DNA from: Lineus longissimus
Taxonomy: Eukaryota; Nemertea; Pilidiophora; Heteronemertea; Lineidae
Direction of reading: 5' to 3'
Length of the DNA stretch: 64,000 bases
Assembly: GCF_910592395.1 (NCBI RefSeq)
Contig: NC_088316.1
Coordinates: 13,516,001-13,580,000, forward strand
Shown: positions 3,951 through 31,000 of the stretch, piece by piece
Numbering within the stretch: position 1 is the first letter of the stretch
Layout of the letters: each line of letters starts with the position of its first letter
Program-made: the position numbers and the translations under genes
The notes under the pieces: model-generated
The model's input: only the letters and a program-made list of their open reading frames with translations
Told to the model about the DNA's origin: nothing
Databases searched by the model: none

Positions 3951-4022
3951 CTATCCGAAGGTGATGTTTGATTTGCCACCAGGGGGAGCGTGAACTCTCG
4001 TTGATGGCCGTCCACCAGTCAC
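3951..4022 (-). CDS. JPT1: Jupiter last coding exon with stop
   Basis: The acceptor CATTTTTCAG is followed by 23 codons and TAG (complement of 3,951-3,953). The end reads RVHAPPGGKSNITFG-stop, the PPGGK C-terminal signature of HN1/Jupiter proteins. It begins in phase 0 and joins the phase-0 donor of exon 4,916-4,959, giving ...GAPP-VTGG... Confidence 0.92.
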   Translation of the reverse strand: MTGGRPSTRVHAPPGGKSNITFG

Positions 4023-7000
4023 CTGAAAAATGGAAGGGAGATTTCAAAATGGTGAAACAGAGAAAAAGAGATACAAGAAAGTAAGTTGCCTCTGAATGAT
4101 TGACCATATCATCCTAAGTATCCACAGTAATGCTATGAAAACTTCAGGATATAAACACTACAGTCTCAGGCTGAATTGGCGAAAAGGACAGGGGCATTTC
4201 ATTGCTTACATGGATCAAGAACACGTTCCCTTTGATCAAATTGCTGTACCAGTTCAACGAAATATGACACAACAAAAGTCTAATATCAAAAACATCGCCA
4301 TGCATAACATGTAACATGTCCCATTGTTACAAGTCTGGACCATGAAGAGAACCTTCAAAAATAACTTTTCAACACTCAGGCACACAAGTATAATGAAGGA
4401 ATAAAATCGAAAAAAGTGCTTTCACACATTTGGTGATAATCAATACCACAAGACTGTGATGTCTTCAAACCACTTTACCTCGTCTCTACTCATAACTGTA
4501 CTATAGAAATAATTAGAATTATAGGAGAAAACTACATATGTGACTCCCAACTTCTGTTAAGGATATCTTGTTGGACATGTAAGAATAGAAGTTACACATT
4601 CTGTATATCAGGGGGGACGGATCTTCTGTGCTATGGGATCAGGTAGGCCTAAAGGTTATGAAGGCCTATCTCGATCTTTGACCTCCCAATAAAAGTGTTG
4701 AATGTGACTTGGCCCATCCAATCAACAAAATGTCCCGGGCATATTCAACTCAAGTAGAACCTTTGGGACCGACAATGCAGTCCTTGGGAGGTCACCTGAT
4801 TTCAGAGGTCAAATTGTTTAGAAGCAACCCATTTGTGAACAAAACCACTGTCCCTGATAGAGGGTGTCCTGCCAAGAGATGCGTCCGCTAAGGAAGCTTC
4901 ACTGAATATACTTACTGGGGGTGCCCCTGGCTGCTGTCCGGTCACAGGGTTGTTGGCCTCTGCAAAACAAATGGAAACAGAATAAACATGGAGGACATGA
5001 CAAACATAGCATAGGAGTTACTTATTGAAAATGTGACGACCCCAAATGTATCGAACCTAAAACTTGCAAATGTCACTTCCTTCCACACAAAACCAGTGTG
5101 ATAACGGGACCCCATGTATGTGATTCCTCAGCAAAAGACAACTTCCACTATCTGATGCAGTTGTGAGCTATACATTCTCAACTTTTCTGTAACCCAACTT
5201 TCACTCATGAAGCCCATGTACACTATGCTTTAGGGTGAATCTAGTCTTGGGGTGGTGACAACAATATGAGTTGGGGGATGGCAAATGATATTGAACACGT
5301 GCAAAACACAACTGCAAATAAAAGGAAGCAGGCAGCGGCCGAGTATTTCGGTCACAATGATGTAATGGCTCGTTCGGTGACTAAAGAAGGACCGAATGTG
5401 ACAAAAAGATTTTTGCTTTCAAAAACTGCAAAAGAACTATCAATCAATAAAAATAAATTAAAGTTTGATGATTATATTGATGAGCTGACCGTGTTTGGCT
5501 GGGAAAAGTCTGATTCAGGGAGGATGTGACAATAATTTACCATCCATCATGTCCATGATTTGTGTGATTGGTACTATGGGATGATGCAGTGGTACGACTG
5601 TGGTACGGCTGCTTTCTGACTGGACAAGACAAGTCTCGACAAATTAGCAATCATTCGGTTCAATTAAGAAATACGACATCACAGGACATTCCCAAATATG
5701 TTCAGCAATACTGCCTATCTGATTCTGCAAAGGCTCTCAAGATCAGCACCTCAACAGACCCCTGTCCATCGGTATTAAGACAATCTTAATACTTAGTGTC
5801 ACATCCCCTTTCCTCAAACTTTGTTCAGTTGGAATCAAGCCAATGATGAGGCCAAGAAAACAGGTATGGTGAGGTATTCAGTGTAAAAAAGCACTCTACC
5901 AAGATGTGTAAATCACAACACTTTTGGTGTTTGAGAGACACTTACAAAAGAGAAGTATTACTGATAGACTGTCGAAGAACAGAACTGCTTCACTTTTGTA
6001 AGGATGAAATGGGTGGTCAAATATAACATCATCAAATTGGTCATCTTGAATAACCGTCATTTTGAAACTCACTTGATGGGCCAACTATTAAATAAACATT
6101 TGAGATGCATCATCGACAACCGTGAAGCCACTCATTGCTCTTTCAACATAATCAAGTTAAAGCGTTATATCAGGTATACTCTCGCCGGAATTTTGAATGG
6201 AAGAGATTCAGATCTTGGTATTAAAATCTACATACTTCTTATCTCAAAACTCTGAAATTTCATGCAGCGATGCCAAAATATCTGTTACGAAGGTACGTAT
6301 GGCATATTTTCAGAAATCACTGGTTACATTATGGCTTTGTTTGATGTCAGCGCCACCTGTGGGCTCCTGCTGACACCTCATTGCAATATGACAAAAGTTG
6401 TGACAATTTGGTTTCATTTAGTAGACTTGATCGACATGATGACGCAAGAGTGTTTTGACATTTTGATCGAAGTTAAAATATGTGAGCTATCCAAGATGAA
6501 ATACCAAATGGACGACCTTGAATTCACGGTCACGTCAATATCATACTACCTCTCTGCCTACGAGTAGGTTTGTGCTCCTCATACTCAATACCTTCACCAG
6601 TTAGTGGGTTACGATAAATTCGCTCTGCCGATGAGAGATGATGGACATGCAGTTACGGGCAAAGCATCATGGGAAGAGAGCATTATGAGATAGTACGAGA
6701 CGGAAAGGTCATGAAGTCATTCCTGACCAAAATTTATGGCTGTGTAAAAGAATTATCAAATGGCTCTATGATTTTAGCAAGCAACATAGACTTTGGGCAT
6801 GAATGAAGCTGGCAGCGATTAAAGAAGCAGAAGTTGTTTCCAGTACCAGATAAAACATTACGAAGACAGAATAGGGTACCGGCAAAACTATGTCTGATGC
6901 CACATGGCACTGGCTGTCACTAGGGTATTGCATTGTTGTGACAAGAGACGTGACGTCAATTTGTTGTGATTTGACGTCACTTCGATGCATACCCTAGTGA

Positions 7001-10000
7001 AATTCAGTGCCACCTATTGAGATGCTGATACCCTATTGATGAGGGCACCATTTTTGACTTGGTCCACAATGAAATGTGAGCTCCACATCACAGAGTTACA
7101 CATTTGAAGATACGACACAAATATCATTGTTATGAAAACAATCAGCGACAACATAACAACAACAATAACAACAAAATCTGGAAAGAAATGAAAAGATGTT
7201 GATTATGACGATATTCATGAACGAGATGATGAATATTCATGAAAATTGCTTAATATCTACAACAGCGTGATGAGGATGAAAAATCTTCCTGAAAATTAAA
7301 AATATTCATTAAGTCGACCGACTAAGCCCAGGTTGTGATAGAAATATTCACAATATTGAGATTTGGAGATTGAAGCCTATGACTGAAGCAGCACTGTGGG
7401 TACAAGGGGAAGAGAGACCCGAAAGTGATTGACTGTTTTCTGCAAAACTGAAAATAACATGTTGAAAGCACCTAATTCCGCACAAACATGGGAAGTCTTA
7501 ACAAACCGACGAGATAATTCCTTGAGATATTATTTTTTAACTTGTTCAAAATTTGAAATAAACGACACTTTGAATGAATTGGCTGTTTTGCAATATCTTT
7601 ACGACTGAAACCTTTTTCTGCCGAAAAAGAAAGTTGTGGACCATCAAAAATTTATTTCTTTATAATCGTTTCCATAACAAAATGTAATTGTTTGTAGTAT
7701 GCAGAACTGAAATTAGTTAAAGTGAAACACAGTTTCCAGCATCTGGCATGACACTTTTTGATATTTTGTAGAACCAATAACATATTTACATATAATAATC
7801 AAAGAAGCTCTATTAAAAAACAGAACACTTGAAATAGCATGGGTATCAATTTACAAATAAACGGATTCACAAAATTTTGGAACAGGAATCATAAGAAGCA
7901 TGCATGATACAAAGGAATAAGATCAACGCAACACAACAACTAAACTACAGGATTAAACAAGTAAAAAGTGCATACACCTACAAAGTTTAAATCTGGGTTT
8001 TTTTCCATCTCGTGAGCCCAGTAGGTTTTTAAGTGTCATCACAATCCAGGAGATAACAAATGTGGCCTACTGATTTCATAAGGACAAAACAAGGAGCAAC
8101 AAAAGATGGGTTGAGGCATTCTACATGCAAACCTATCATAGATAATATTCTTTCACATTAACAACAATCTTTCTATGTACAATCAAAACTTTATAAGGCA
8201 AGCCTGTCTCTAAATTTTTGGTACAATCCAGGAATCATTCAGTTACATTATCAAATTCAAAAGTGATTTTAACAGTAAGTCTCACCAGCTCACAGGGACA
8301 AATCCTTTCACACATTCATCAAATCAACTGATAATACTTTTTGTAAGAATACAATACCTATAAGCTAATTTGAGGAGGACACCATTGAAATGCAAGCCTA
8401 GAGAAATATAAGTGTACAATAAATGTTTTCAAACACCAAAATACTATGTCTAACCAACAAGATGGAAAATAACCTGTCTTCCCAACTTATGAAACCAAAT
8501 ACAAAGGAAGTTTTGACTAGCACCTAAGACATGAGAAGAAGAAACACAATATTTAACTAAACTGTGGCCTACAACAGTTTTACAATATGTCTACACAGCA
8601 AAAGAAAACAAAATCATACAACTGAATAGGGTAGCCAAAGCTAGGCTTGAGCAAAGCAAGAAACGTCCACAACCATGGCAACTGACTGGTTGCCATGGAA
8701 ACACTGTAGTTGCCAAGGTAACCAACCAGCTGCCAGAGTGTTTCATTGGTTGCTATGTTAAAACTAATTTCTAAGGCAACATAAGACACTGCACTACGAC
8801 ATAACTTGCAAATTACTAAGAATTCACTACAGTAGCCGACAATTCTACAATTGACCCGACACCACAAGATATTGAGGTCAAGGTTCAACTGGGTCAAGGT
8901 CATCCAGTGGCTACCGGTACTGACCGGAATCATAGATCACATGGCGGTAAAAGATGAATCATTTTGGTTTCCTGAATAGCCGTTATAGTTATTGTGGTTT
9001 TCTCGGACGAATGGACTATTGTTGGAGACTGAAAAGAGAGAGAGAAATAGTTTAGATGAGAGAAACGGAGAATAGCCAACGTCAAACGCCATTCGATCAA
9101 GTATGGTATGGTTTAGACGGTCAAACCCAGGTATAATGTATCACTAGTTGTTATGTTCCAAGCCCATGGGGAGTGAGTGGGGACCATATGTAACTGGGGT
9201 TATGCAGTGTAAGTTGTACATTGAAAATAAAACAATTGCATACAGGAATCTAAAATTCGGAAGCTTCTCATCTGCAGACCTTGGGAATAAACTTGGGAGC
9301 GAGCTTGCAAATTAGAACTAAGAAACAGGTTTCAGAAGACCACAATATCTCAATGGTAATAATTAGACAGTGTACACAATACAATTTTTGGAGCATAATT
9401 TCGACATCAATGAAAAAGTTTAGCTTTAAAAAGAGGCGAACACTGGCTATCCACAGAACAGTACAGCAAATCATTTGACTTTGGGAACTCGGCACAGGGG
9501 ATGCAAATCGCAGTATAGCAAAACCTCAATGACATGACGATGAATACATCAGCGGCTGGACAAAGTTCACTCGGCACACGACACAACTTACTTCAAATAC
9601 ACGAGGGCCTTTTCGTCTGAAGCTATAGCACATCAGTAGGCCTGCTAAGTAAAAATTCAACCCCATATAGCCAACACTTGTAAATCACAAGTAAAAAAAT
9701 CTTGAAAACATACGTTCACAAAAATTGACAAAACAAATGCAAGTGTTAGCAGTGTTGTCCTCAGTGTGGTTGTGACATTGTCTTCCAAACATGACAGGCT
9801 GTGCTATTGTCCTAAGTACTTTTAAGATTTAAAATTGTACGTGGCAAGTACTGGCGTGGTCTCTGGTCTGGCCAGGTTCTGATACCTTCCCCTAACCTAT
9901 AAAGCAAGTGATGATGTCTGGCTGTGAGATTGTCCCAGGACAGATGTGAGATTGTCCCAGGACAGGTGACAGGTTGTGCTAAAGTTCCATCTCTACTGTA

Positions 10001-13000
10001 CGTGGAATTTGTAGTGCAATACTACGAAAAGAACGGCAGTGCTGATAAATGGCCACATGCTTTGCCCCCCCCCCACGTTATCTCAGATCAATTACAAATC
10101 ATGCCCCCTCCCCCTCCCCAGATACTCCATGCAATCTGTGCACTATGGACTACATGTGTAGCATCAAGATTCAGATACATCATAAACTTCCTACTTTCTG
10201 CTTAACACGGAGCATTTTATCAAGATTGTCAAGTCGGTATGGTTTCTGGGGTCCATAAGCATCAGGCCTGAAGGGTTTTTGGGGTCCGTTAGCATCAAAT
10301 CTGAATGGTTTGTCGGGCCCTTTAGCCCCGGCTGGGGAAACGTACTTGCAGAGAGTAGTGCAAGTATTTGATTCAAGTTTGTTCTCCTGCAAATCTCTTC
10401 CTGAAATATTGAGTGATTGAAATCCCAATACGGAAGCCTCAGATTTGTCCTATATACAGTAAGGGCAAATTAATTTCTTTGTTCCCACCCACACCGATTT
10501 TAGCCGCCGCCCTGAAACAACCTTTTATTTATTTTACATTTTGCCACCAATTCATTACGTTTTACATCAGACCGCATATTCGCAGCCCGTACTGAAAGCA
10601 CTTCCATTATATGAGTGTGATTTCTGATTAAATAAACCAATGTTTTTCTCCCTTTTTGACTGCAAAACTCCACAACACCCATTCATACCTTGGTTCTTCG
10701 CACTTGAAGGCATTCTTGAGCGTTGTTCTAAGCTGATATCAAAACATTTACAGTTGTCACCAGTCAATGGGTTACCAGATTCTGAAAGAGAAGAGGACTG
10801 TTAGATCTTACAGAAAGGCCTTGGAAGCCACAGCAAAGGGCATTATCAACTAATCACAAAGACCAACCACCTAAGTTTGAAACAATAATACATGTACCAA
10901 TCACCAGAATTGAACAGAGCAAAGAAATGTTCAATTTGATACCTCATCATGGTTGAAACTTTCCTGGTGTCACCAAAATATACAAAGGCCCCATTCAGGC
11001 GCGAATCCAATGGGGGGACATGCACCAGACGCACACACTCCCCCCTATTTCATGAAAATTTTGGAATTTAGAACACACCAGGAATTTTTATATTTTTATT
11101 AAAGGATAACCTCATCTGCCAAAGTTTCCTCACAACAAATGGACCTCAACCACATATTTTACCACAAAAGCTGAAATGTGATTAAAGAAAAAGCACCTCT
11201 TCGTCAGATTAAATGATAAGACTTTAAAACACCACCTGAAAATTATGAAATGTTTAGCACCAATGAAAACTAGAGGACCACAAAACACCAAAGCTGTAAC
11301 TCAAAGTAGATCTACCTGGCGGTGTGAGGCTACCGCGTCGGATACGCCGGTAGACCTCCGCTCTACCATTGACACCACTGGGAGGGGTGATGGGGTTATA
11401 AACACTAAGAACTGGATGGAGGAAGGAACAGAGTGGGAACTTTAGTCGTGAAATTGCGGAAGAAACGGATGGGTTGAGCATAGGACATTTTTCTGAGATA
11501 GGTGTGGGCTAGTGGGATGCAACACAAATACTAAACTATGGATACAATACATGTACTGCACCCTTTATCTTATGACCACCAGTCCCCCAACAACATGATT
11601 AGCAGAACACAGCGGAGCTTTACATCATATATCGTGATCAGCATTTTTTCATCTATATATACTTTTTCACACAAACTGTAAACTACTCTAAAATGTCAAT
11701 AATGTATGTTAAATTTGAATAAACTTAGAAAAAGCTACAAAGTACATCAAGCTTGGAACAAGTAAATAAACTGAAATGAACAACTTTACAGCAATTAAGT
11801 TCAGACAGCCCCATTTTAAAAGCGGATACAAACACAATTGAAAAGCCACAACAGAGCGATGAAATGTATCTCAAATAAATGCATATACACATATTTTCAA
11901 ATTCTTCAAATGTTTATAAAAGAATCAAGTCATTTTGTAGCAAAGTTAAATTGGGCACACGTCTGACAATAAAATCACTGGCGATGTGCACTCTTCAAAA
12001 TGCACTCACAATTGACTTTATAACCGAGGTGTGTCCCTATAAGAGTAAGATAATAAGAAAAGAGAATATTTTACATAAGATCAAAGATAAGGCCCTCGCT
12101 TATAAAACTAAAACTGCGCATTGCATGCACCTTAACCCAAAGCAGAAAAGTAGGCCTACCAGGACAGCTGATTCTCCGAAGGGCCAGCGGGGAATGGAGA
12201 GAAGGGCCAGTGATGGGATTCACAGAATCTAACAGAGGGAAGAAAGATGTACCAAATAAGATCTGCGTGATACGTTTATAGTGGTCAAAAGAGTGGCTTA
12301 CAACATTGGCAGGAACAGGTTACAGGAACTGCAGCACTACTGGGTGTCTTTACTTAACGACATAGAAATGTTTACACCGAGTGGTCTAAATCTACTTGAG
12401 ACAGAAACCAGCTTTAGGTAGATAATATTGCAGAGACTGCTGTCTAACGCGAAAGTTTGGGAAAAACTAAAGTGTCCACTGATTTTATTTCTTTCCAATT
12501 TTACTTTGTAAGCACTGAACATGATATTTCGTTAACTTCATTTAATACTACTGTATCCTGAGACAGAAATTTTGGAAAAGTTGAATTTCTCATTGATATT
12601 GCTTGAAGATAAGAAATTGAAGGAAACTTGTGTTTTGGTGGAGCTGGTTAGTGGTTTTACACCGAAAGCTCTTCTACATGTAGCGAATAAATAAAACATG
12701 TTGATATAAACAGCAGCAATCCAAGTTTAAACAACAGGGAGTCAAGAGACTTAGAACAGCCATGATGCACTAATTAGCTTTTCTCAACTAATTAGCTGAC
12801 AAACTGCATCTACCTGCACTGACTTGGAAACTAAAACATCGCGTTGATGACATGGATAGCAAATGAACATTACAATAAGCGGAAGTTAAGGCGATCAGAT
12901 TCAATACCTGATGGTCTAGGTGATCCTTTAAAGGATTTGTGTTGATAATCGGGCCGAAATTCGTACGAATTACAGTTGTATCCCGTCAGAGGATTAGAAA

Positions 13001-16000
13001 CTGATAGAAAGAAAAAACCGACACTTAGCATAATCATCAGCAAAACCACTCGGCAATGGAGGGGCTGCAACTGACAAGGTCATAGGTCTAATGGATTTAT
13101 TAAAGGAAGTCCTAATTGACCATGAGATCATTGCAGCCCCCTTTAAGCATAACCCAGGATGATCACCAAACACGAATAATTACAAGGACAGCCCTATGCC
13201 AAACATACAAACATACATGAAAATTTTCAAACTTTTAAGCACAATTTTTAAGATTGTGAATTCGAACAGGTCTATAGAGCACAAAAGTAATAATTGCAAG
13301 TTCACACTGCCACACATTTTAAGCTGCCAAACCCACACCAACAGCACATTAAAAACCAAGAAACTTGCTTGAAATTGCGGAATACAGAAAAAAATGCCCC
13401 TATGAAATTGCTTCAACACATTACTGAGCACTTATGTGATACCTGAGAAAACCCAGATGACCGAGATGTAGTTTTGCGGGAGAAAAGCAGAGATAGGGAA
13501 AAGAGAAAGTGACTTTTAATTAAAGTTGTACCTGAATGAGGTCTGGGAGTCCTCGGAGTAGCATTTCTTTGAATATCCCAAGATTTTAAGTCCTGTCCCG
13601 TGCCAGTCACAGGATTAGAATCAGCTGTAGGGGAAATAGAGCAGACACATCAACAATTAGGTTTAGATTTTGAGAAAATGGAACCAGAAATTCAGCTGTT
13701 GGTGTAAATTTCTTGTTATGAGTGTTGAGTAAATATCTGAAACGAGAATGCCGCTAACCAACTACGCTCTAGAGAAACAAATCAAAGTGTCACCACCATC
13801 TTTTTAACAAGGTCTCAACCCTTCTCTTATGGGAATGAATTCCAAGATGAAGACAGCTTCTATCACCAAGACAGAGAATGTAGAGGATAGTTGCCAACTT
13901 GGAACTAAACACAACACAAATATCTCGTCCAGATCACCACATCTTTTGGAAGGAAAGTGAACCAGTTTAAAGATGCCACCACAACCATGGAATAGATTTT
14001 AAGACAGATCTACTGGCACAGGAAAAGTGATAAAATCATTTCGGATATTTTCTGTTCCTCAACCAAGTATATATAATAGAGCAGGACATTTCAGAAGACA
14101 AAATCCACTGACAGAATCCCAGTAAAACCTAAAAGGAGTTTTCGTCCACAGACTGCAAGTTCTACACTAGTTCTAAACAGGAGCAGCATGCACAGTCCAA
14201 AACCTTCCAGCCAGGGACAGGACCTCCACAGAAATCCATCAACCATAGAAGAGATATTCGTAGAACAAAGCACTTTACTTAGTGACAACATTGAATACGT
14301 GAGATAGGTCCATAAAATAGTCTGCTTCAGTCGCACATAATAAGCAACTTTCCAGCAGCTCATGTACAGTATATGAAACTGCCCGACACCGAATGACCAG
14401 AAATTCTTTGTACCTCTTTTATATTCATGTCTGCGCTGTGTTGCTGTGCCTAGTGGTGGTGTGTTTTGACTGTTCTCGGTCTCCGTGCCATCACGATTTC
14501 GACCTGTGATGGGATTACGGTTAATAGTCTCTGTGGAAATGACATGAAATGATATGACAGGCTGATTCAGTAGCCATGCAGGGTGATCACTGGTAGAGTA
14601 CCAGCCTAATAATCAGCAGGTTGTGTGTTTGCCTATTGGAAAGAAACCCAAATTGCTTCAACCTTTCAATAAGCTGTAAGATTGAGGTCCTGGTGCCTTG
14701 TGCTCATGCCAGGGCAGGCAAAAGATCCCATCAATGTGGACAGCGGCTTGCTACGGACTACTCTTTCTTGGGTGCAGAATGCAGAGCGAATGTTGAAGAA
14801 GAGGTACCCTTGTATGGGGTAGGAGGCAGAAAGCATGAATCTCTCAGATGCATCAGAGATAATGGGCCCACTTTTCCCATGCAACATCGTAACAGGAACT
14901 GACTGGGCAGTGAAGTAGGGTGCCAGGATAATCGAAAAGGCATTAGCAGAAAAGACTAAACCAAGTTTTCATGGATTTCCCCACTACAACACAAACACTG
15001 GTTACAATATCAAAGAATTACATCAGTAAGTAAATGCTGAGGTCGGATGCTGAGGAACGATATGAAGTTTCGTCACAAAGTCACAGATGGAGGATTTGAG
15101 GCACGATATCAAACGAACAACATCAATTTTAGAACATTATTTCATGATTTCCCTTGGCAGATGAGTCACCAGTGATGGCAGACATTCATCTAAAACATTT
15201 ATTCAGTGTCTTCTTCATACATATGCATGCACTGGTCACAGATCCCGATGGCCCGGTGGTTGAAGTGTCCGCCTCGTGTACGAAGGGTTGAAGGTTAGAG
15301 ACCCTTTGTTAGCTCTTTCTGGTGTGGTCCATTGCTTAGCCCCAGCTTGTTATCAGAGATAGGAGTTTGGGAGTAAAAAATGTCACAAGTCAAATGTCAC
15401 AAGCCAAAATCTGGCTGGCCCTTTCATTAGGGGTGACACTGTAACAAACTTCTTCGTATAGCTTACCTCTAACCCTTCTCGGGCAAGACTTTGATCTCCT
15501 AGGTCGGTTAAATGTGCTCTCGGGACCTAAAGCGCCCTCCCCTACAATACAATTCCTATAGGCACTGGTTGTCATTCTTGTAGGGGTTCTAGCCCGGTCA
15601 CGAGGGGTGTGTGGCCCTGAACCGACATATAGGGGGCGGTCATTGTCCCCACGGTGCCCAATAGGATCCAGAAGGGCATATTCTGAAGAATAGGGTGAAG
15701 AAAGGTTAGGAAGTGAAGAGACAGGCTAACAATGACACAAGCCTGTTGGGCACACATACGTGTAGAGGTTCAACTGTGGTCTAGAGCAGACTGCAGCACG
15801 AGCAACTCACTTGTTTTGGGATCAAAACTGACTTTGGAAAGACCAAAGCAGCAAGTTAAAGGAAAGTGGCCTCATCACTGCTGACCTATTCTAAGTGCCT
15901 GTCGCAGCGTTTTTTGACCTTAACCTAAAGCTCACCTTCATTATCCATCTTCTTCGTGGGTGTCTTTGGTCGTCTCATGGTTCGTTTCTTGTCATCTTCA

Positions 16001-19000
16001 TGGAAGTCGCCTTGGCCGCTTATCGGATTCCTTGTTGCTGAAGAAGAACATGAATGCTATTAGATATGACGTACAGGAATGAAACTGCCCTCAAAGAAGA
16101 AACAGGCATTTCATGCAATACCTAGTCTATGTTGTGTAGGAAATACATGTACATATGTTGAATTATGGAAAATTCGGAATTATGGTACAATTGAAGCTGC
16201 CAAATTACAACATTCATGCTAGATTTAAAGATAACACATCAAGGATATTTCACCAAGTCCTTCAACAGATAACTTTTCCATTACTGATCAACTCTATATC
16301 TTATATGAATATACCTGCAAAACAAAACAAATTGTCTTTGACAAATGGTTGGTCAGGGATATAGGCTATGACTAAATATCACACCCAGAGTCTGAAACGA
16401 AATACTGTAGTCACAAAACACAAAATGTCATCAGCATATTTTGCACGAAAGCCGAGGATACAAAGTAAAATCTGATCAACAAACCTTTTCCTGGGCGTCT
16501 GCAGAATCGACTGCTAGTGCAATGCATATTTACAGAGGTACAGGTCAGAATAGGCAAAACAGCAAATGTTCAATATAAAGTATGTGTGATGCACAGCAGC
16601 TCCATCCCAGGTCCTCTCGGGTTATTTTGTAAAATTAGTCATGAGCTGACGAGGTTCTGTTGCAGTGCAAATTATAGAGGCAACGATGCGTGTATTAACT
16701 CACATACATGTATCAGATTGACTGAGCATACTCCAGACTACTGTAACTAGTCTTGTTGTGCAAGAACTGTTGATAAGACTTGGAAACTATGTAGGTGAGT
16801 AAATTGAAACAAAAGAGCAAGCGACTACACCCTACATCGAAACAATTAGGCTACCAAGACGACAAAACCCTAAAACCCAATAAAAATATACTTCATAACA
16901 TATTCCAGTGACCATCTTCCTAAGTTATCTAAATGATCCAAGACCACCACAAATGTCGACAGGTTCCCGATGAACACACTCCAGTTTCTGATCAGTCATG
17001 CCCGCCATTTTGTGTGACATCACACAACCTTCGCTGGAGGCAAGCTCAGATGTCTCACAAAACAACAGGAACCACTGTCTAACAACCTCTTGCTCAGGAG
17101 CAGTCCCAGCAGGTCACCCATTTTCTTGAATCTTGTCGATCGGGAACCAATCTGACTCTTGAGACTACAGGTGAACCAAGACAACCTCTGCATCAACCAA
17201 GACCACATCTGAATAAGTATAGACCATCCCTGTATCAACCAAGACCCTGTGATGTATACCTGCTTCTTTTTCGACATTGTGTAGTCTGTACATTGGCCTG
17301 GCTTTTTGTTGTGCGAGTTCTTTGCCTAAGATTGGATCCCTTCGATCTGCTGGTAAGTACACAAGTGATTACATTTTAAAGTTTGTTAACCTCTGCATCT
17401 GTCATAACTGACACAAGTTATGTCAGACAGAAATACGATCTAGCAAAGTCAGTTTTATAGACAGCCAGGGATTACATTTTTGGAAGTGGTGGAAATGTGA
17501 AAAGGATATCTTTTATTATCTGTTATAAAATTAAGATTAAAGGTTCACCATTGGCACCACAACTTTGGCAAGAACTTGAAATCCTAAACCAATTAGAACT
17601 CCTTCAAAATGACGTGAATGCATGTCAAGGGTGGGAGTTGATCTGTTCTCTGGAAAAACAAAGCCCGAGTGGCGCACAGATTTTTCAGGCATCTTTTTGA
17701 AAGCGACAGAGAATTCAAAAATCGTTCAAGCAATCACAAGCTACAAGCTATCATAGCTTTTAGAATAGAATCAAATATTTAAAGCGATCACTCCACAAGA
17801 TCAACTCAGGTTTATATTGATAGACGGCATCTACAAGCCAAAAAATACTAACTCTGCATCCCCCAATTAAAATTCACCTCCTTGACTAACTAACTTTGAG
17901 TCATCTGATTTTAGAAGTAGCAGACCTGTGTTTGACAGCCCTAAAGGTTAGGATATTACAGCACTTGATATCAAAGGCTACCGTACATGAAAGGATGAGG
18001 GAGAATTGATATATTGCCTGAATCTGTTCGAGTGGTGATGTTTTAAACCAACAATTACTTTTAGCACGCTATAAAGTACATTACTGATGATAAAGAAATT
18101 ATCTACATTACACTTTTCGTTTGTGTTTGTATACGCCCACACCACATCGCATGTATGTATATATATCGTTTGAAAAACTTATCATTTGATAAAAACCAGA
18201 GATGTGGGATTTTGAGTAACACCTTTCAGGCAGGTTAAATCATGCGTCTGATACGTGTTAGATGTGTAGACAGGAAGTAGGTTACTTCTGACCAGTACTG
18301 CAATGAACATGCTACTTTCGACCAAAAGCAATTAATATTCTCAAAAAATTCAAGAGACTCAGTAACTGTCATAAAATTCCTAGCCCATGAAAAAATTACT
18401 GTTAACTCCATTCGAAATGCCAATAGCAATGAGAGGCTTGCTGAAATGGGCAATCAAAAATATTGGAAATCGAAAACCACAACCAAATGATCAGAAAGAC
18501 AAAGCTATCACAGCAGATGGCTACCTTTCGAATTTAGTTTTGGAGTTGGTGACCTCAGACTTTGTGACCATTTTAATGCGGGTCCTTTCCTGACTGGGTC
18601 GTACTGTTCTATGTTTCCAGACCCCTTGATAGGGTCGCGAACTGGAGCTAGATGGCAATGGAGAAAATAACAGAAATGAAGGAAACTTGAAAATGATTTG
18701 AAATTGGCATTTATTAAGCTATTTGTGTGTCGTCTGCACATCGCAATTGTTACACAACTAGGAATTTTCAAATTGTTTAACGTTCAGAGTCGGCCTTTAA
18801 AACAAGAGACTATAAATCCTTAACAGAAACTACAAAACTGGAAAATAAATGTCATCTGATGATGTCTAATGCCGTAATGGTGAATAATTTCATTCTGTGC
18901 GTGAACTAGTTTGCTGCCTACTCGAGACTGAGAAACTAACAGTCCTAGGGGTCATGATTGGCAACAAAATTTGAGGTTTCCTCTTCAATTTACCTTGATG

Positions 19001-22000
19001 GTGCTTGCGAGCTCCAGGCGAATATGCGTTTTTCCATACTGGGTCATACTCGGAGCCCAAGTCCCCCTCTCCTAACACGGGGTTGCGGACAACTGTCAAC
19101 ATAACGATATCGATTATTACAGGATTCTATCACCACTGCCGCTAACCGATAATTGTAACAGTGAACCAACACCATCACTACAGTGTCGAACTAAAGACAG
19201 AAAAAAACCCCTCCATAATCCCACTTGACAACAATTCTGGTTTGAAACGGTTTTGAATTCGAGGCAGGCGACAAATTTGACTGATCTATCTTGAGGAATA
19301 TCACACCCTTAACCAACTGAAATCCACAAATCCAGGGGTAGGGCCCAACACCACCAAACCAGTTGAAGCTGCAAACCGACCTTCAGGAAATGTCTCCTTA
19401 CCAACAGACATCGACCCTTGGTAGGGCAGATAAAGTAACTCAAATATCTGAGATTGGAAAGAGATAACCCTCGGTTAAGTCTATAATACACTTCAACTAC
19501 AACCAACACCTTTTCCTGAAATTGAACCAAAACCCTGAAAACCTCCGACACCAAAATGACTGTCAGATGTTTACCCTTGTTAGGAGGTGTTGCAGGACGT
19601 TTCGGTACTCTAGGTGACCTCTGAAGAGTGTCCAATTCTTCACCTAAGTCCCCCAGACCTAGGATTGGATCACGTACTGTAATAAGAGCAAGAACTGTTA
19701 CAATCAACCGCAGAGAAACTGGAGGTTGAGTGCTTGGAGGAATCTCTCATTCCGAAGTAACCTTCCAACCTCCTTCTTCCAACCCTGACAACACATCCCA
19801 CACACAAGAACTGTGATATGCTTTCTTGATTTCAAGACAGGAGTCGGCATAAAGTGGTCAACGAAGGATAGGAATCTGTTGCTTCAACATCTCAGGATTC
19901 CTGGCGCTTGTTTTGTCAAGCAGACATTGAAAATTTGATTGAAATTGCTGGGTTCTTCCCCAAAGGAACTGAACAAATGAACAAACGTCCAAGGACTCTT
20001 GCACACCATGGCATATTGATGACATGGTATCTTAAAAGTGCATCTGATCCTTCTTGTTAATGGAAGATTACATGCTGCATCATCCTAGTGATGGTAATCC
20101 CTGGAGTCTTTGACAGCAATGGATACCGATCGAGTCTGTTCCATCATAGATTAGCTTTACGCACTGTGCAGTTTGATGTAGAAAATCTACAGGGCCGAGC
20201 AGCCAACATGATTGTGATTAAAGCTGGGCATCGGCTGCTACTTTTCACCAAACGTACGCCAATCGACCATGCCCATTTTATACAGTCTCATCCAACAGAA
20301 CGATTCCTTCAACGAGGGTTGAAACCGAACAGCGGCACACAGAGGGTATCAAGTTTATAGAGTGACATCGGATGGCTCCAGACTCCAGTGCCGAACAAGG
20401 ATTTGTGCCGGGTGACTCAACCCCATTTGCCTAATCACAGTTCGACTCATTTTTTACCCAATGACAATGATGAAGCATTTTCCTTTGTGATTGCCATTCT
20501 CGACCTGTCAGCTCAAAGATGGATGTCAAAGTTTTGATGTTGTGGAAATACAGTATAGCCCTCTGGTTGACTCATGAGCTTTAGGTCATGGTAGAACAAA
20601 TCTCTGTTTCCAATGGTTCAAGCAATTACAATACATGTAGGGAACCAGAGTGATACTGGGGCCACCAAACCTCATAAGGTCGAATGCTTGCACTGTACCT
20701 TCCTGATCATGCTACAGAATTGTGCCGGTCTACCTCGGGAGAGCTGTATCCACTGGAGTAGGAATCTAAACATAGAATGCTGGTCCCACCTCTGCCCCCT
20801 GCAACCATGACATTTTAAATCACTAACTTTTATACCTAACTTTTAAAGCTAGATAAAAAAGTTTCTTTGCATAATGCTCAAGAGAGCCCAATTAGCAATC
20901 AATCAGGCTAGGTAGTTAATCTAATCTGCTTGAGTTTGATTCCCGACAACTCAGGAAGGAGTTCTTTGAGAGAGGATGCTGGCGTCAAATAGAAACGAAT
21001 GTTTCATATTTTGGCCTGTCCTCGCATCCAAATTCAAGCACATACAATACACCCGTCTTTAGTATCCAATGCCAAAACACTTTCGGGGCTTCATCATATT
21101 CAGGGTCAACTGTATTGGCGCCAGAATGACACAAAAAAGATGGAGACGATCAAATTTCCTGCATGACAAAGAAATCAAGGATGACTATTGTTGAAAAAAA
21201 CGACAGCCTTTTGCTACTCTCACAGCAACATATTCGGATTATGCTGACTCAGCAAATTGCAAGAAAATATGACATGCATGCAGTAAAAGATGACGTTTAT
21301 ATGCAACAACATGTTTGGGAGGTTTTGAGGGAAAGGCTGGTAAGGCACCATACCCGATTTCACATACCACTGCCAATAGTTGAAAAAGAACCATCCCACC
21401 AAGGAGTAATAAATGTGAGTATCCAAGAGAGAAAGTCTAACAGCTCAAGATTCTAGCTAGAGCTCAGTTAGAGCACAGCGTCTCAGAGGTTTTAAATAGC
21501 TTCCATGGACAAAACAGGACATTTGATAAACCTTGGTTGCACGTTGGAAAAGAGAGGGACTTGGAAGTGGGTAGTGAGGTGGCAGGGTAGTTGGGGAACC
21601 AACAGGAAGGACACCCGAAAGAGAACCAGAGACCTTACCTTGGAAGATAGAACCACCAAATTGAGTTTCCAAATCAAGAGTGTCAGCATCACCCATATTT
21701 ATATCCAACCGTAGTCCAAAGCCTCGATGAGCTCTCTAATATAGTATCAGCGTATACGAAATCTATTAAAATGAGATATTCATGCGAGCTTTCTGAAGTG
21801 GGGAATATTAATTCCAAAACACCTGCTACCCGGATAAAGTATGCTAGGGATTTGGAGAGCATGCCATATTCAGCCACGGAATTGTGTGCCCGGAATGTGG
21901 ATTATCAAAGATGTAAATCAACAATCAATGGACAGTTTCAATTAAGTTTTAAAGATGCGTTGCTCGTAATTTAAATCGGGCTGCTATCAGAGTGTATACT

Positions 22001-25000
22001 AGCAGAATGCCGATGCAGCCACATAGAATTAAGCATCAACTTGAAGATATTGACAAACATCAGTTGTCTGGTGCATAACCCCCCCCCCCCCCTCCCGGTT
22101 TTCAACTCCTTTCAATTTGCAACCTTATTTTTTTATCTTCGTTGATGTGGCAAATCTTGCGATTGCGTATTGGACACAGTCCCTTTAACTGAGTGCACTT
22201 AGTGATGCAGACAGGACCTCTTCCCAATGTGTGACTAGGTATCAATATCCTCATTTACTGCACCAACAATAGGATCGGATTATTGATCTCAGTTTAAAAT
22301 ACTCCCAGTAGCCAAGGGGAACATCTCACAATGATTTCCCATTTCAGGGGACCGTTTCATAAAGCACACTTTTAGGACTGCATGACCATACCAGACTGGG
22401 ACCATCAGAGGACCACTTCATGGATGAAGAACAAAACCAACATCAGATAAGCACATCTAGACGCACCACCGAATGGATTTTAAACGGTCCACACCAACTA
22501 AATCTATCCTTGTGATCCACTTTTTGGACCAGACAGGACTACACTCTGTCAGCCACATTTGATGGAAGGGTGGATCAGAATGATATCTATGATCCATCTG
22601 TTCATTTACATACTTTGAAACAGACCCAATTAATCCCCCAGTTGCACTGACAGTCACTTTCTTTATTTTGAGGGTTAACTTCTTATTTTTGTTTACCATC
22701 TCCATTGTTGTTTACAGGTGGCAGAAGATGAAGAATAGTAAAAAAATATGCAGTTACAACCAGAGTAAAACACCTTGAGGCTGAGAAGCATGAGATAAGA
22801 ATAATATCAGATGAACACCAACAAAGAATAGCTCAACAGGAAGTCAAAGAAGGTGTAGATGATCTGATGTAGTTCCAAGCCTTCTGTGTAAACTTCCTGC
22901 GCTTCATGGGTCTGCATCCACAAAACTACAGCTTTAAGAGAATGCAAAAGAAGTAGATTACCACCAACCGCTGGGAAAGAGCAGAAAACGGTTGATGAAT
23001 CGTGTCCGTCTGCATGTTGAATTCTCTAGAGGTGTGTACAGTGGAACCTCCCTTATTTTGGCAACCACTTCTGTCAGGACACACTCTACCCTCAAGAGAA
23101 ACTGCTTTTGTTCCAAATTGATGATTTCTGTTAAACTTGACCCCTCTAATCAGGACATCTCTCCATCTAAGATAGCATTTGTCAGTGACGAGGGTGTCCT
23201 CATGAGAGGTTCTACTGTACATGTGTAACAAAGGAAAACCGACACCTTGCCAAGAATAATCTTTGCACCGGAACTTCCAATCCCAAAACACCAAAGCTTA
23301 TTGGGCTTAAATCTCACTCATACCTCTGGTCGTGTCAGAGTCTGGTGTCTTTGGACGTCGAATGCCTGTTGACAGGAGATCTAACTCCTCTCCGAAATCG
23401 CCATGGCCTAGTATAGGATCCCTATTTTCTGCTCAAAATTAAAATAAAACAATAGAGCAACTGTTAAATGCCAGAATTGCGAAACTTGACCTTGGTTTGT
23501 GTATTTCATTGAAACGAACATCTAAATACCAACAGAATCTATCTATAAGAAGCCTGCTCCAAACTATATTATGAAAAGGAAGACCAAGTACTCTAAACAG
23601 TAGCAAAAAGAATCGTCTTTTTTCTTAATGAGTTGGCAAAGCATATTTTCTAAAGAGCATGTCTGCTTCTAAACGCAGCATTCAGATATCGTGTGAAGGG
23701 TGGATCACCAACTCATTACACAGCCCACTTTACTTCAATCTTCAGTGAGAGTAATTAAAACCACTAGTATGAGGTTTCTTGGCCAGTACCTCCATCAAAC
23801 ACCTAGACAACTCACCAACACCAAAAAAATCTAACAAAAGTAGGTTTTCTGATATCAGTAAAGCAATAGACATGAGACATGTAGATGAGGTCCCAAGATT
23901 CATCGGAAAATGTTCATGAGGACAGTTCACAACCACAGAGGTTCTGTTGGAGTCGCCCAAATGCTCCTCCAACTGACAGAATAGGGTAGGATGTTTTAGG
24001 CCCCGAGTTCCGATCTGATCTGTTGGTGCAGTTGTCATCTTTCTGATGCTGCAAGAGGAACAGCAAGAAGACTCACCAATCACACAAACGAAATAGATGT
24101 TTTTTGTCGTCAAACCCACGAGATGAGACACTTCTCTGATTTATTACCAATGTCTATGAGTGCAACGATGAGACACTCCTCATTTTTTATCTCCGACTCA
24201 ATTTGTTTTTTTCGTGGCAAGTGTCACTTGGTCAAACCACAAAGCAGCCATTAAGACAATGATACTGATGATCATGCATGCGCAAACTGACTCATCTTAT
24301 GCTACTTAATCATTTCTCTAATTCAGATTGATTTTAATTTCCCTCGTATAGTCTGACTAGTTTGCCCAAAATTTGCATTTGTCAGCCAAAGTTTTTGAGT
24401 TGCTGCAGAGAAGTTTGTCTCATACCTTTTACATTATTTCGATCAGAATCAAATCTGCAACATATAATGCCACCACCACAACTCAAAATACAAAGCATCT
24501 AATCAATGAACATATTATTTCAACTCAGAAAGTTTCAAGTTTCATCCTAGGAACGAGAACAAGAAGATCTTTGACTGAAGCGTGAGCCCACAATCCTTGA
24601 GAAAATATGTGAATAGGATTTAGTTTACACAGCAACCAACAAAAGAAACAGATTCATAGATAACCAAAGATCACCCTATTCAAGAAATTACTAATGGGAT
24701 GACCCACCACTAGATAACAGATTCACCATGAAAAATTAATAAAGATTTACCAGCGCTCGACTTTAATTTTTCTCTATCAATCACTCTGATGGGGTGTGCT
24801 GTCATGGGATCCATATTGGCTATCTGCGGATTGTAATACGACTTTGTGGGAGTCATGACCGGCGCCCCCCATGCTAGAAAGCAGAATTGTATTAAAACTC
24901 TGAGTGAGCTTCACTGAGATTGAACATCAAAGTATGTTGCCTAGTAGTAGTATAATTTCATGCTGATGACACTTTATCAACCCAAAAGAAAGTTTTCAAC

Positions 25001-28000
25001 ACAATTTAACGATTCTTATTAGAATTTGTTTTATTCAAAATTGAATGAAACAGAGAAATGCACAAACCTGACCAAACATTTGCAAAGCAACACTAAACTT
25101 TGCCTCGCTTCAAGCCTGCCAAAGTCACTGGCATATACATCTCCATACGCATGGTTTTCAATTCTAAGAATGATATTCACAACTGATATAACCGTGCCAA
25201 ATTCGGCTCTTTTAGTATCAGTCGCCACATTGCCAGACTTTTTGGCAAACTCGAAGGAAACAAAATCTATACAGTACACTTGACTCACCTTGTTGAGGAC
25301 GGCGACCCCGTCCCGTTCGTCTCTGGACGGCTTTATTATCCCCCGAAGATTGGCCAGCTTCGTTCACCATCTTGACAGCTTTCTGCCCGCCTTGTTGTTG
25401 TGAGCTCTCTGCCTTGTTGTTGCTGTGAGCTTTCTGCCCACCTTGTTGTTGTTGCGAGCAAGCTCTACACGTTTGGTTAGAAGTACAAAAGCAAGAGCCA
25501 CTACTAGTCGCTGGACGTGAATGTTCCTTCTCTGACGGAGCGGTTCCGTTCTCTCGTGGCGTATGGACGTGATTCACGTATCTCGATTTGGTCAAGAACG
25601 ATATTGTTGGCTCAAGATAACCTGCTGTTAATTGTCCGTTACTTGTGCCAGTGGACGAAATGTTCTTTTTTACACCTAGTTTTCAATCACACGGAAATCA
25701 TGACACCAAATTTTATGATTAGACCGGGGAGTTAAGACAAAAGAACTGATCATGTTTGACGAGAAGACATGCAAGGTGGGGTGTTCACTGATAAAAGATT
25801 GTGCAGCCAAGAAAACGCAGTTTCAAAATTCACAAACTAGAGAAATAAGGAATGAAGCACACTTCAAAAATATTCATCCGAAATGACATTTTCTGTGCCA
25901 AATAAATTTGTATCCATAGTTTCGAGGACGTCCTTTGTTTTTTCTGCAAACTGTGTTATCAATTTTAGAAGTATTATTCCAACAATCAAACATTTAACAC
26001 CAAAATTTGGAGTTTCAGGAGGCTAGTTCAGTCTAATGCTTCAACCCTGAACAAGATTTTAAGCAAAAAAGCTTTACAAAAAACTGCCTATTAGTATTTG
26101 GCATAAAAGGCTCCAAAATTTCAACTGGCACTCAATCTTGCGATATCCGTCCTGCAGAAAACAAATCCTAAACGTTTCGACCTCAATTTATGGCAGTCCA
26201 AGATATCACCTAGGAAGTCCAAAATCGGGATCCAGGAAATCTTGAACAAGATTACCACCTCTTCTTCACAGTGCAGCTGAACAGTCAATCACGAAATACT
26301 TGCCAGATAATTCTACATTTGCATGTTATTGTTGAACGAAGCAAAATAGCAAGAATTGAAAAAGATTCCTGATCACAACCTGGGCTCAGTGGTCGAAGAC
26401 ACATAAACCTATCCTAAAATCTGAAAACTTGTGTTAGGAGTGTCAATGATGCTACAAATCAAGCGAAGATGAATATGAGATAGACCGGACACCTCTTCAA
26501 GTGCCAGGTTATTCCGCCAAATAGATCGGTTTAATCACAAAATTAGACGCAATGGGCATAATGGATCAAGCTAATTACTGGCTACAGACATCCGATGTGG
26601 GTTAGGCAATCAAGCTAAGTAGACACCAGAAGTGCCAGGAAGTTATCAGATTATGATATTCCACTTGATTTTGATTGATATGAATGATATTTGATTTGAG
26701 TGATGTTTGGTTGCAAGTTTAGCGTTCAGATAGATGGAGCCCACGAGAGTATTTTGAGTCTGACTCATCGAGATATAACTGTAGTGGAAGCTTATTTTTT
26801 TCATGAAAACGCAACCATTTTTTACAGCAGCAATCTATATTAGCATGGCAAAATGTAACTAGTCACACTTGCACTTTTGAAATATCAAATGAATTTTTAT
26901 GTGTAAATGGAACAGTTTTTTAAATTTTGGCCTCACACAAAATGTCTTGTAGTATTTGTATTTGGTCTTTCGAAACCGGATACTGGCACAAAGACTGAAG
27001 TTAGATGTCTGGTGCAGTTAGGTATGAAGTATTTATTTTACAATACATGTACTAAGGATCATGTAACTGATAAAGCAAATATCCCAGAAGTGACTTTCCC
27101 AAGGGCACAGACACAAAGATTTAACCGATTCCTGGCAGAATAACTTGACACTTTGAGGCCCACAACAAAATATGACAATATCCTGCTCCGTCACGGACTA
27201 AGTCACTTACTCTGCTGACTTTGTGATGGTCTAGTTTCTGGTTGTTGCGGCCGAATAGGGTCAGACTGGCGTGGCTGCTGGGCGGCTCTTGGAGGCGTTA
27301 ATGGCTTGTTACTCGTACCGGGTTGGTCGAAAAAGTTTTCTTTTGATGTGGAGTTTTTTGGATTGCATCTCACATGTGAGGGTTGTGGCGCTGGCTCGCC
27401 CCCACCGAAAAGATTAATGGACACCCGACCACCTGGAGGATTTAACACCCTGGAAAGAGAAAGATGTATTTGGTTGTAAGAAATAGTTTGCATGGGGGGG
27501 GGGGGGGGAGGGCATAGTAGTTTAAGCACCAGGCTCATATCAGGAGAGCATGGGTTTGACTCTCTCTCTCAGAAGGAGAACTACTGGAGATGTAGGAAGT
27601 CGAGGTCCCTCGTCCCTGGTGCCATGGCAAGCCAAGGACTCCATCCAAACAGACACTGGCGAGTGATGGCCTCTTCCTATGCCCTCAGACAAAAGCAACA
27701 GTCGAGAGTCGATCGAACAATCCCCACTCGTGCATAACTGTAGTGGCACACAAAATTGCTGACTCATCCGTAACTGGATGGTCTCTACTAGGGAATAACT
27801 CAAGCAAGCAAACGCTGAAAAAAACACATGCAAAATTCTTTTTATGAAACTGCCATTGGATATTTTCTGAGTTACATCAGATAGCTGTCATCCCAGTTTG
27901 GTTTGCATGAGTCATCCATCTGAATAATTCACACTGGGGATCAATCTTCACACATTTCATAGCGTATAAAGTCTACAATTGCTGTACTGGTATGTATGTG

Positions 28001-31000
28001 ATATGCTGCCAAAGATTTCCGAATCAAGACACACAGGATATGAGAACACAGAGAATGAATGGTGCACAAGATCTGCAGTGCGGGTACTTTTGGAGGGGAA
28101 ACAGTATTTTTCAAGACACAGGGATGGGCCAGATATCCATCGCTGTCTGGATTTGTGATAGACACCCGGGGAGGGGGGGGGGGGGGGGGGGAGACATTCA
28201 TCTGAAATAACATTATTTTTTTGATAAGCACGTGAAGCTGTTGAAACCGGAGACGTAAAAAGCACCATACCAACATCTGCTGACCGACATCACAGTTCAT
28301 TTTATGATCATGCCAGTTGGACATACACATCTGAACCAATCGATGATATGACTACCAGTTTAGAAAATGTCTATTGATTATCAGGTAGAAGTCGAGACCA
28401 GCCCTAATCAACCTGTGACTCAGTTGGATGAAGGTCAATAACATATGCCATTGATCAGTAAATGAAACGGCTTATTGGGAAATGCCCTGTAAAACAAGCC
28501 ATTCTCATGTCATGCGACAAAAATCGCTGGTCATATACGCATGGTTCATCACAGCAGCTTGTGACAAGAATCAAGTCATTGCTGCAACCTTCAATACGTG
28601 TATCTCTGACTTGCTCAAGAACACAAGCACTGTATTAGCCAGTGTGGAGTATCAAACTCACGATGCTAGAATAAAAGGGGGACAGGGAAACATACTATGC
28701 AATGTGACGGGCAATCTTCCTGCCTGAAACTCTCAATCTAACTCTGCCTCCTAAGATCCAATCACCGCCCCCTGTCCTCAGTAGGGCAACTCCCCAGAAG
28801 ATGTGCAAAGTACAATAACTGTGCCATAACCGAGTTGAGTTGAGAGCAGAACACTTTTTCTGTTGACAACCCTTGAAAAAATACTGAGGGTGCATATGTA
28901 TCTTACCCGAATGCAATTACTAGGAATTAGATAACAATAGGCACAAGGGCCAACAACTCCATGCAAAGTCCACATCTCGACAGGACCTCATCAAATGGAA
29001 ATGCCAAGTAGACTATGAAGTGTCTCAAAGACATCAACACAAACAACAATGTATGTACATGAATAGCAGTACTCACCAATTGCCACCAAGACACAGTATC
29101 CCATACAACGCACTACAAGACAGCGCCCTCACAAAAACAGCGACACTGAGCCAGATTCTGCACTACACATCGGCTGCAACAACGCTAACACCCATTATGA
29201 CTAGACAGTATCAAGACCGTACGCAGGCAGCGTGATATCGGGTAATTCACAGCCCAGTACGCGCAGCGACCAATCAATTTTCGCTATTGATCCTCGAGGG
29301 TAGTGATTGTTTCAGGCGCAGCACATGTGCCAGCCCACGACGTACACGCACAGTTTCAATATCATGCGGACCGTATAATTGAGCAGGATGTAGGCCTAGG
29401 ACTCGGAGGGTGTATAACACACATATGGGACTTATACAAATAGACTATTGAATGCTGCAGCACAGATGGTCCAGCAGGATTATTAATCATACTGTATATT
29501 TGCGGGCGGGCAATGTGCAAAATGACTTTCCGCAACTGGAATTGAATGGACATTTTGCAGCATTCTCTGAAATAGCTTACTGACTGTTAGCTCTGTGGTT
29601 ATACAGTGGTTAGACCCTGATGAGACCCATTTCATTGCTTTAATGTCTGTAAAAGAAATGGTGACACGGCAAGAGATAACTTCATGCATTTGTGGTCAGA
29701 GGATTAGATCAAGAATGACTGCAAAACAAATTTACATTATTTCCAAATCATTTGAGATTTTTACCAGTTCACTGCCCTTTTATTATGTTTTTTACGCCAC
29801 TAGGACATGAAAGTTAATATCCCATAAAGAACCATTAGCCAAGTCTAATGCAAAAATCTTTCTTCTGTGTTTTTTCGAAGTGAATTGCGGTCAAGTGCCA
29901 TGTTTGGCAAAAAATGACTGTCCCAAGTCACCACTGGCCTGTCTGGTATCAAACATATGTTTGCATCAAGAAACTCGACCTTGCCACCTCTCATGTCATA
30001 GAGAAAGGTTCAAAATCATTTGCAGTAGTATCTGCAGTTGTTTTTTAAAAGTTGCGTGCTTTAAAATTGTAAAACATTGACTAAAAGGAACTTTACCTAA
30101 TTGGCACAACTCTCAGTATCAATGCAACACTATTGTGGACTACTTCCTCTTTCTTCGGAGATAGCCTTGCATGCAAACAGAAAGAATTAGTCACTCACCT
30201 GGCTGCGACTTCGAGATTATTTTCCCCACCAGCACCCTTGCAGAGGAACATGAAGACCAAGTACAGGATCAAACCCAAAACCGCCGAAAACAACTCGTAC
30301 CACATAACATCACAAACTAAAGAGAAGACCGAAAAAGGGGCAATGAAATCTGAAAGTAGGCCTAAAAGAAAAACACCCCTTGTCCGAGACAGAACCAAGA
30401 ACTTTCTACATCTTTTTGCAAGAAAGATTCAAGGCAATTTCGCAATGTCCTAGCCAGGTATCAGGTAAGGTCAAAGAGTGTTCAGCACTTTTTCTCCATC
30501 AGGTCGACTTTGGAGGTATACAGGTGCCCAATGGGATCGAAGTTTAAAATAAGAATGCACCGCTACAAAATTATCTGATAATTTACGCTTCTATCGTTGG
30601 CGCATTGGTACTTGTATAGTGGTAGTTAAGCTAGACAGCGCAGGATTCAGATAAAAACTTGATCATCATCCGGTACACTTTTAAACTGTATACACATGTA
30701 AGTCAAACAAGGATTCTTTATGAGGATCTGTAATCTTGCTTGGCGGTTTTTCGCTGCGGGAAGGCACCCACCAGATAAAATATCATCTTATCCTAAAGAT
30801 ACTCTTGGGGTTTATGAGAGAAATGAAAATGGATATGTAGGAAAAGAGCCGATTGGGACAGGATAAAATCGTTTTCCTGGTTCTTAAGTTAGTTTATTGT
30901 GTCTGCAGATTTGAAACTGTTTGATCAAGATAGCATGAATGATCTACCACCACTTTTGGCAAAAAGTCATTTCCTAAATCTGAGTCTCACTCAGACTCAC

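Follow-up and report, generated by a model that had tools for sequence, protein, structure and literature searches.

Can an animal tune the number of repeat units in a protein by leaving exons out whole? The question is raised by a gene of the bootlace worm Lineus longissimus (Nemertea), which may do just that. The window analysed here, a stretch of 64,000 nucleotides, is placed by genome search on chromosome 9 (C9:13516001-13580000); the genome is reported to measure 391 Mb and this chromosome 20.55 Mb (PMC8593623), and our genome searches covered the 391.1 Mb assembly. The window contains a real, conserved array of exon modules in a gene of the Jupiter type, that is, a relative of Jupiter, JPT1 (HN1) and JPT2 (HN1L). 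The explanation we favour, which we hold to be moderately probable, is that a Jupiter/JPT-type gene carries an old array of NPxTG modules, mostly one module per phase 1-1 exon, and that splicing includes or skips these exons whole. If so, the gene would be a clear case among animals in which many in-frame cassettes in a row set the valency of a repeat protein.

Exon layout of the gene

On the minus strand, running from 37298 to 3951, 20 exons can be joined in one frame. Between exon 2 and the exon at 4916-4959 lie 16 cassettes, all of phase 1-1, of which 15 are small (69-216 nt) and one is long; most of the small exons hold one copy each of a short repeat unit. This agrees with a preliminary description of the locus, correct in its main observations, which had placed 15 small exons and one longer exon, all phase 1-1, between conserved end exons. 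It had also given a range of protein lengths from 136 to about 783 residues: the lower figure stands (411 nt when all 16 cassettes are left out), while the form with every cassette comes to 781.

The best protein relative, isoform X3 of RefSeq LOC135494118 from Lineus (727 residues), is identical letter for letter to 16 joined window exons. It takes in 13 of the 16 cassettes, skips those at 12908-13000 and 12160-12228, and reaches its end before 6550-6624. It also differs at both ends, with a first exon at 30199-30305 that encodes a transmembrane segment and a last exon at 8937-9028 instead of 3951. Both of these exons, together with a tandem acceptor at 23431/23428, had escaped the original inventory, the 20 exons of which do join; the long exon had been recognised, with its acceptor set at 25624 where X3 uses 25675. 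The exons are listed below in the order of transcription, with their support in parentheses.

37243-37298, minus: exon 1, MTSTTNSIGLNPDSRNSS(R), Jupiter/JPT-type start (frame joining; alignment with JPT relatives)
30199-30305, minus: alternative first coding exon, transmembrane helix MWYELFSAVLGLILYLVFMFLCKG (in X3; hydropathy; AlphaFold helix)
27211-27449, minus: exon 2, RVLNPPGGRVSINLFGG, N-terminal PPGG (frame joining; JPT alignment; in X3)
25289-25675, minus: long internal exon, acceptor 25675 in X3 and 25624 in the preliminary description (in X3)
24751-24873, minus: cassette, divergent module (in X3)
23324-23431, minus: cassette module ENRDPILGHGDFGEELD, tandem acceptor 23431/23428 (in X3 from 23428)
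19575-19676, minus: cassette module VRDPILGLGDLGEELD, closest Tubulanus unit t3 (in X3)
18994-19092, minus: cassette module VVRNPVLGEGDLGSEYDP (in X3)
18525-18647, minus: cassette module APVRDPIKGSGN (in X3)
17260-17349, minus: cassette module ADRRDPILGKELA (in X3)
15936-16037, minus: cassette module ATRNPISGQGDF, closest Tubulanus unit t6 (in X3)
15467-15682, minus: double-module cassette, LLDPIGHRGD plus YRNCIVGEGALG (in X3)
14414-14530, minus: cassette module ETINRNPITGRN, closest Tubulanus unit t9 (in X3)
13532-13624, minus: cassette module ADSNPVTGTG, closest Tubulanus unit t10 (in X3)
12908-13000, minus: cassette module VSNPLTGYNC, closest Tubulanus unit t11 (skipped in X3)
12160-12228, minus: cassette module DSVNPITG (skipped in X3)
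11316-11411, minus: cassette module VLSVYNPITPPSG (in X3)
10689-10781, minus: cassette module ESGNPLTGDNCKCFDIS, closest Tubulanus unit t12 (in X3)
8937-9028, minus: alternative last exon VSNNSPFVRENHNNYNGYSGNQNDSSFTAM*, AATAAA at 7656 (in X3)
6550-6624, minus: cassette module ERIYRNPLTGEGIEY, with its match in the chromosome 5 copies (frame joining)
4916-4959, minus: exon EANNPVTGQQPGAPP, phase 1 in and 0 out (frame joining)
3951-4022, minus: last exon VTGGRPSTRVHAPPGGKSNITFG*, C-terminal PPGG (frame joining; JPT alignment)

Two further candidate exons on the same strand have no support: a last exon with repeats GPQKPFRPDAYGPQKPYRLDNLDK at 10180-10400, and a first exon MGDADTLDLETQFGGSIFQ at 21639-21696, which ends in phase 1 on G before gtaagg.

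Module sequences and predicted structure

The module units span 23-41 residues, the exon at 15467-15682 being a 72-residue double module, and they share a layout in which an acidic N-terminal half with NPxTG is followed by a basic, Pro-rich C-terminal half (charges over 16 units of -21 and +49, respectively). When the units of the 15 small exons are counted with the double one split, the strict motif [ND]P.[TLS]G is present in 11 of 16. The preliminary description was right to see modular units; its picture of 25-40 residues with this motif in nearly all small exons was too uniform. Most modules do begin, as it said, with E, A, V or G, while 12160-12228 begins with D and the cassette following exon 2 has a different first residue, S in the case of X3, because exon 2 ends on A. 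The units also resemble one another, with a mean pair score of 21.2 versus 3.6 +/- 0.7 in 200 shuffles (15 of the 17 units used).

Could such an array be read into the DNA by chance? A scan of the gene strand for the combination of motif, pyrimidine tract, phase and final G returned 13 exons, namely 12 of the 16 cassettes and 4916-4959, the end of the latter misplaced. The same scan returned nothing on the opposite strand, in three flanking scans (37301-64000 on both strands and 1-3950 on the plus strand), or in any of 100 first-order Markov sequences, and with all these controls empty we rule out chance or artefact as the origin of the array. Among intronic splicing motifs near the cassettes, TGCATG occurs 10 times versus 7.1 expected and GTGTGT 7 times versus 2.8, and four others occur about as often as expected.

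The product of exon 30199-30305 reaches a hydropathy of 2.33 over 19 residues, and AlphaFold predicts for the 727-residue X3 a confident helix at residues 2-24, the first two ten-residue blocks having predicted local distance difference test (pLDDT) values of 92 and 95. A second short helix is predicted and the remainder is disordered, with pLDDT below 50 for 667 of the 727 residues.

As to the ends, both the N-terminal SSRVLxPPGG and the C-terminal PPGG are present, and PPGG is invariant at both ends in an alignment with four relatives. The gene thus shares with Jupiter, JPT1 and JPT2 (Pfam PF17054) the SSRVLxPPGG start, the PPGGK/R C-terminus and a CRAMP1 neighbour, and the relation to Jupiter/JPT already proposed is borne out by the matching ends and the CRAMP1-like neighbour. 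Unlike the Lineus gene, the relatives with the Pfam domain in our comparison have 123-207 residues and no module array. NPxTG and PPGG do occur together in the Jupiter of the mollusc Solemya, which has one NPITG, and in a chytrid protein; they do not in two fish JPT proteins. The chytrid protein (Thoreauomyces humboldtii, P0005) contains two copies of NPVTGGRQSVRLFAPPGG plus a third unit with PPGG, both motifs being joined in one unit.

Evidence for whole-module skipping

X3, a gene model, contradicts constant inclusion of every small exon, one outcome that the preliminary description had set against its own proposal. A second ribbon worm behaves alike: relative to X2, models X6, X9 and X10 of Tubulanus LOC141906064 lose two, two and three whole modules, and have a different start (module limits were set by hand). 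The borders of these deletions fall on V, A or D, whose codons begin with G; the X9 border is ambiguous by up to 3 residues.

The genome itself offers a second line of evidence. On chromosome 5, four intronless loci lie within about 23 kb (C5:21854930-21877410; L003-L006). Three keep an intact frame of 156 residues, two of these being identical, and the fourth is open only from further in; nonsynonymous (dN) and synonymous (dS) divergence between L004 and L005 are 0.009 and 0.026. When 17 models of the parent transcript with no or one cassette were compared, the best joined exon 1, exon 2, 6550, 4916 and 3951 (score 254.5; the next reached 214). By blastn the copies match cassette 6550-6624 at 88.6% over 44 bp (6623-6580, starting at the second exon base) and the last exon at about 82% over 41-44 bp (3986-3943, extending beyond the stop), the match to exon 2 being weak (71.7% over 53 bp, E 0.63). 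In these intronless copies exon 2 is joined to cassette 6550-6624 and the last exon, the sign of a short transcript that was once spliced, and judged by their sequences the copies are best read as a fossil of such a transcript from which 15 of the 16 cassettes had been left out. Their divergence from the window gene (dS about 0.63 over 70 hand-picked codons) suggests that the copy is younger than the module array.

Gene models and the genomic copy thus agree with the earlier proposal that modules are exon-wise and skipped in frame, and this evidence, good but indirect, suggests whole-module skipping. Under the explanation we favour, the locus would yield two kinds of product. The compact one, a Jupiter of about 161 residues, would consist of exon 1, exon 2, cassette 6550-6624, 4916-4959 and 3951-4022; the long ones would be module-array proteins in which the transmembrane or another first exon is combined with most cassettes and the last exon at 8937-9028.

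Several observations weigh against this explanation. The isoforms, X3 and those of Tubulanus alike, are gene models made by computation. Among the listed candidates of 75-240 residues none came from Lineus, and the compact form is thus unseen in that database. Genome searches for a second Jupiter gene, with the Solemya protein and with PF17054, came back empty, and since both also missed the window gene, absence is not implied. Finally, no Pfam family at all matched the full or the skip-all form at E <= 0.1, or the Lineus protein P0001 at E <= 1, and this includes the JUPITER model (PF17054, curated score 27 bits), which relatives P0007, P0008 and P0009 pass; because the cut-off is not reached, we file the gene as Jupiter-related and not as a member of the Pfam family.

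Age and distribution of the array

How old is the array? Comparison of the Lineus and Tubulanus modules (17 x 12 units) gives six reciprocal best pairs, all of them colinear, and the score of the colinear chain was matched by 1 of 5000 permutations of the order. A profile search, in which detection relies on shared five-residue words, matched at least 10 flatworm proteins, with E from 1.7e-19 to 6.6e-6. Nine of these flatworm proteins were scanned and have four to nine matches to the module pattern each; PPGG occurs in none of the ten proteins scanned (the nine and P0002 of Tubulanus). The Tubulanus protein and those of the flatworms (Hymenolepis, Mesocestoides, Spirometra, Paragonimus, Dicrocoelium, Opisthorchis) have modules as in Lineus, colinear in Tubulanus, but are uncharacterised and, where scanned, free of PPGG. 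Pfam TagH_SH3-like matches on four flatworm proteins span 16-18 repeat residues and were set aside as spurious.

Because flatworm proteins carry modules without Jupiter ends, the array is older than Nemertea and can exist without those ends. The preliminary description had taken exon duplication within this gene as the source of the array; colinearity with Tubulanus and the presence of modules in flatworm proteins make it old and do not support a local event. A module search of the Lineus genome placed all 14 matches inside the window; since the chromosome 5 copies escaped it, the search is not exhaustive. None of the open-licence PMC papers listed by our searches, judged by titles and the starts of abstracts, deals with these modules or with rows of cassettes in Jupiter/JPT.

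One gene or two transcription units

The same distribution lends itself to another account, to which we give appreciable weight, if short of even: the locus would hold two nested transcription units, one for a compact Jupiter and, inside its large intron, one for a module array that has promoters and a last exon to itself; exon 2 alone would be common to both, and no module but cassette 6550 would ever be joined to the Jupiter C-terminus. X3 begins at 30305 and stops at 8937, as this account expects, the Jupiter exons with 6550 account for the chromosome 5 copies, and the Tubulanus isoform and the scanned flatworm proteins have modules without PPGG. In three protein searches, in two of which about 8000 candidates were scored, no protein among the matches listed joins several modules to a PPGG C-terminus. 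However, X3 splices exon 2, the Jupiter PPGG exon, to modules, all phases are compatible so that both classes could mix, and the proteins read are cluster representatives alone.

What, then, of free combination? Among the matches listed, the Lineus proteins fall into one 90% cluster of 14 member sequences (possibly the same isoform counted repeatedly; the representative alone was read). With this single cluster and no Lineus form among the listed candidates of 75-240 residues, free choice among up to 2^16 combinations is not supported, and 2^16 is arithmetic only. A reading in two classes, compact Jupiter and long module protein, fits the findings as well as free combination, or better.

A possible role at microtubules

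What would a variable number of modules be for? Drosophila Jupiter is reported to bind microtubules (PMC3375142, PMC8572007) and serves as a marker of stable microtubules (PMC8572007); by analogy with such relatives, the Lineus protein may associate with microtubules too. It would then act as a disordered multivalent binder in which each module makes a weak contact with tubulin, and exon choice would set the valency, much as alternative splicing is reported to change the number of microtubule-binding repeats in tau (MAPT). In tau one repeat exon is switched, giving three or four repeats, whereas Lineus has a long row of cassettes.

The most specific version would place the contact in the luminal taxane pocket of beta-tubulin. 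A cryo-electron microscopy preprint describes two loops of CFAP213 (FAP213), with the motif GYNPITGEY, in this pocket; its authors report no homologues in higher eukaryotes and ask whether alternative motifs serve there (PMC11642885). By eye, this short NPITG loop is like the module core, for example IYRNPLTGEGIEY at 6550-6624; CFAP213 differs in having two loops and no array, and the resemblance is one of motif. JPT2 is reported, via a review, to be luminal in microtubules and taxane-sensitive, its placement in the lumen being recent and the link to the luminal pocket predicted. Luminal proteins with tandem repeats (SPM1, SAXO and the Mn repeats of MAP6) may offer a parallel in working: Toxoplasma SPM1 is reported to have 32-residue repeats with an 8 nm period along the lumen (PMC8144581), against 23-41 residues for the Lineus units, but their motif is another one and the sources seen do not describe their repeats as exon cassettes.

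Taken together, these likenesses allow a speculative and rather unlikely proposal of a splice-tunable microtubule-lumen ruler. One NPxTG cassette would occupy each beta-tubulin taxane pocket, units of 25-40 residues would step between dimers or protofilaments, and exon choice would set the pockets filled, microtubule stability and the response to taxanes; PPGG (in JPT) and NPxTG (in CFAP213 and in the Lineus units) would be variants of a single ancient pocket motif, N-P-[PIV]-[GT]-G, and the transmembrane isoform would tether the chain to a membrane. The appeal of the proposal is that endogenous use of the taxane pocket becomes testable with short synthetic modules, and that the Lineus gene offers a natural series of about 15 divergent variants, common to ribbon worms and flatworms, whose number is apparently altered by splicing.

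Not everything points towards tubulin. Searches of the PDB with the two-species array, cassette 6550, a profile of 41 module sequences (hand-chosen from 64 core windows, the 23 left out being near-duplicates and several odd modules) and the CFAP213 motif three times gave no tubulin-related chain; neither motif nor profile found a CFAP213 chain, such short queries being weak. Overexpression of newt HN1 is reported to leave the microtubule network unchanged (PMC3375142). NPxTG is found in surface proteins of bacteria too, and, for the lumen in particular, five-residue motifs are common.

It is also possible, if on balance rather doubtful, that the main action lies elsewhere, on the outer microtubule surface as in tau or in an NAADP (nicotinic acid adenine dinucleotide phosphate)-binding adaptor of calcium signalling as in JPT2, the modules being spacers. 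The basic, Pro-rich C-terminal halves of the modules resemble the repeats of outer-surface microtubule-associated proteins, and the transmembrane form, as modelled, could sit on organelles. JPT2 is reported to bind NAADP and RYR/TPC1, with a role at calcium channels (PMC8452981), which also counts against the lumen. On the other hand, the module core resembles the CFAP213 pocket loop, JPT2 is reported as luminal and taxane-sensitive, and Jupiter marks stable microtubules.

Other origins of the skipping evidence

Returning to whole-module skipping, an unlikely objection is that the parent of the chromosome 5 copies was a different Jupiter gene, ordinary and with a single module, and that the copies have no bearing on skipping here. 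The insensitivity of the genome searches, which missed the window gene itself, leaves room for such a gene, and the Solemya Jupiter with its one NPITG provides a precedent; but in DNA sequence the copies match the window gene itself, in cassette 6550 and in the last exon, and a dS of about 0.63 is below saturation. Quite improbable is a long protein that is essentially constitutive, with isoform models as annotation noise and cassettes as ordinary repeat-protein exons: the single 90% cluster of Lineus forms and flatworm relatives resembling fixed repeat proteins would suit it, but two exons are skipped in X3, whole module runs are dropped in the Tubulanus models, and the model that suits the genomic copies omits all cassettes but one of the 16.

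Neighbourhood of the gene

Head to head with the Jupiter-type gene, on the plus strand at 40672-43185, lie CRAMP1-like coding pieces. The identity to pieces of human CRAMP1 is 54% over 82 residues at 40672-41100 and 35% over 49 residues at 42106-43185. The same pairing is reported in chicken, with JPT2 and CRAMP1 within one 40 kb window (PMC6508745), and a human gene list groups CRAMP1L with HN1L on chromosome 16 (PMC11867066). Further along the window, at 48757-51038 and 54496-55817, are tandem arrays with units of 73-87 bp and a 41 bp unit repeated 32 times, in which some frames are open over long stretches.

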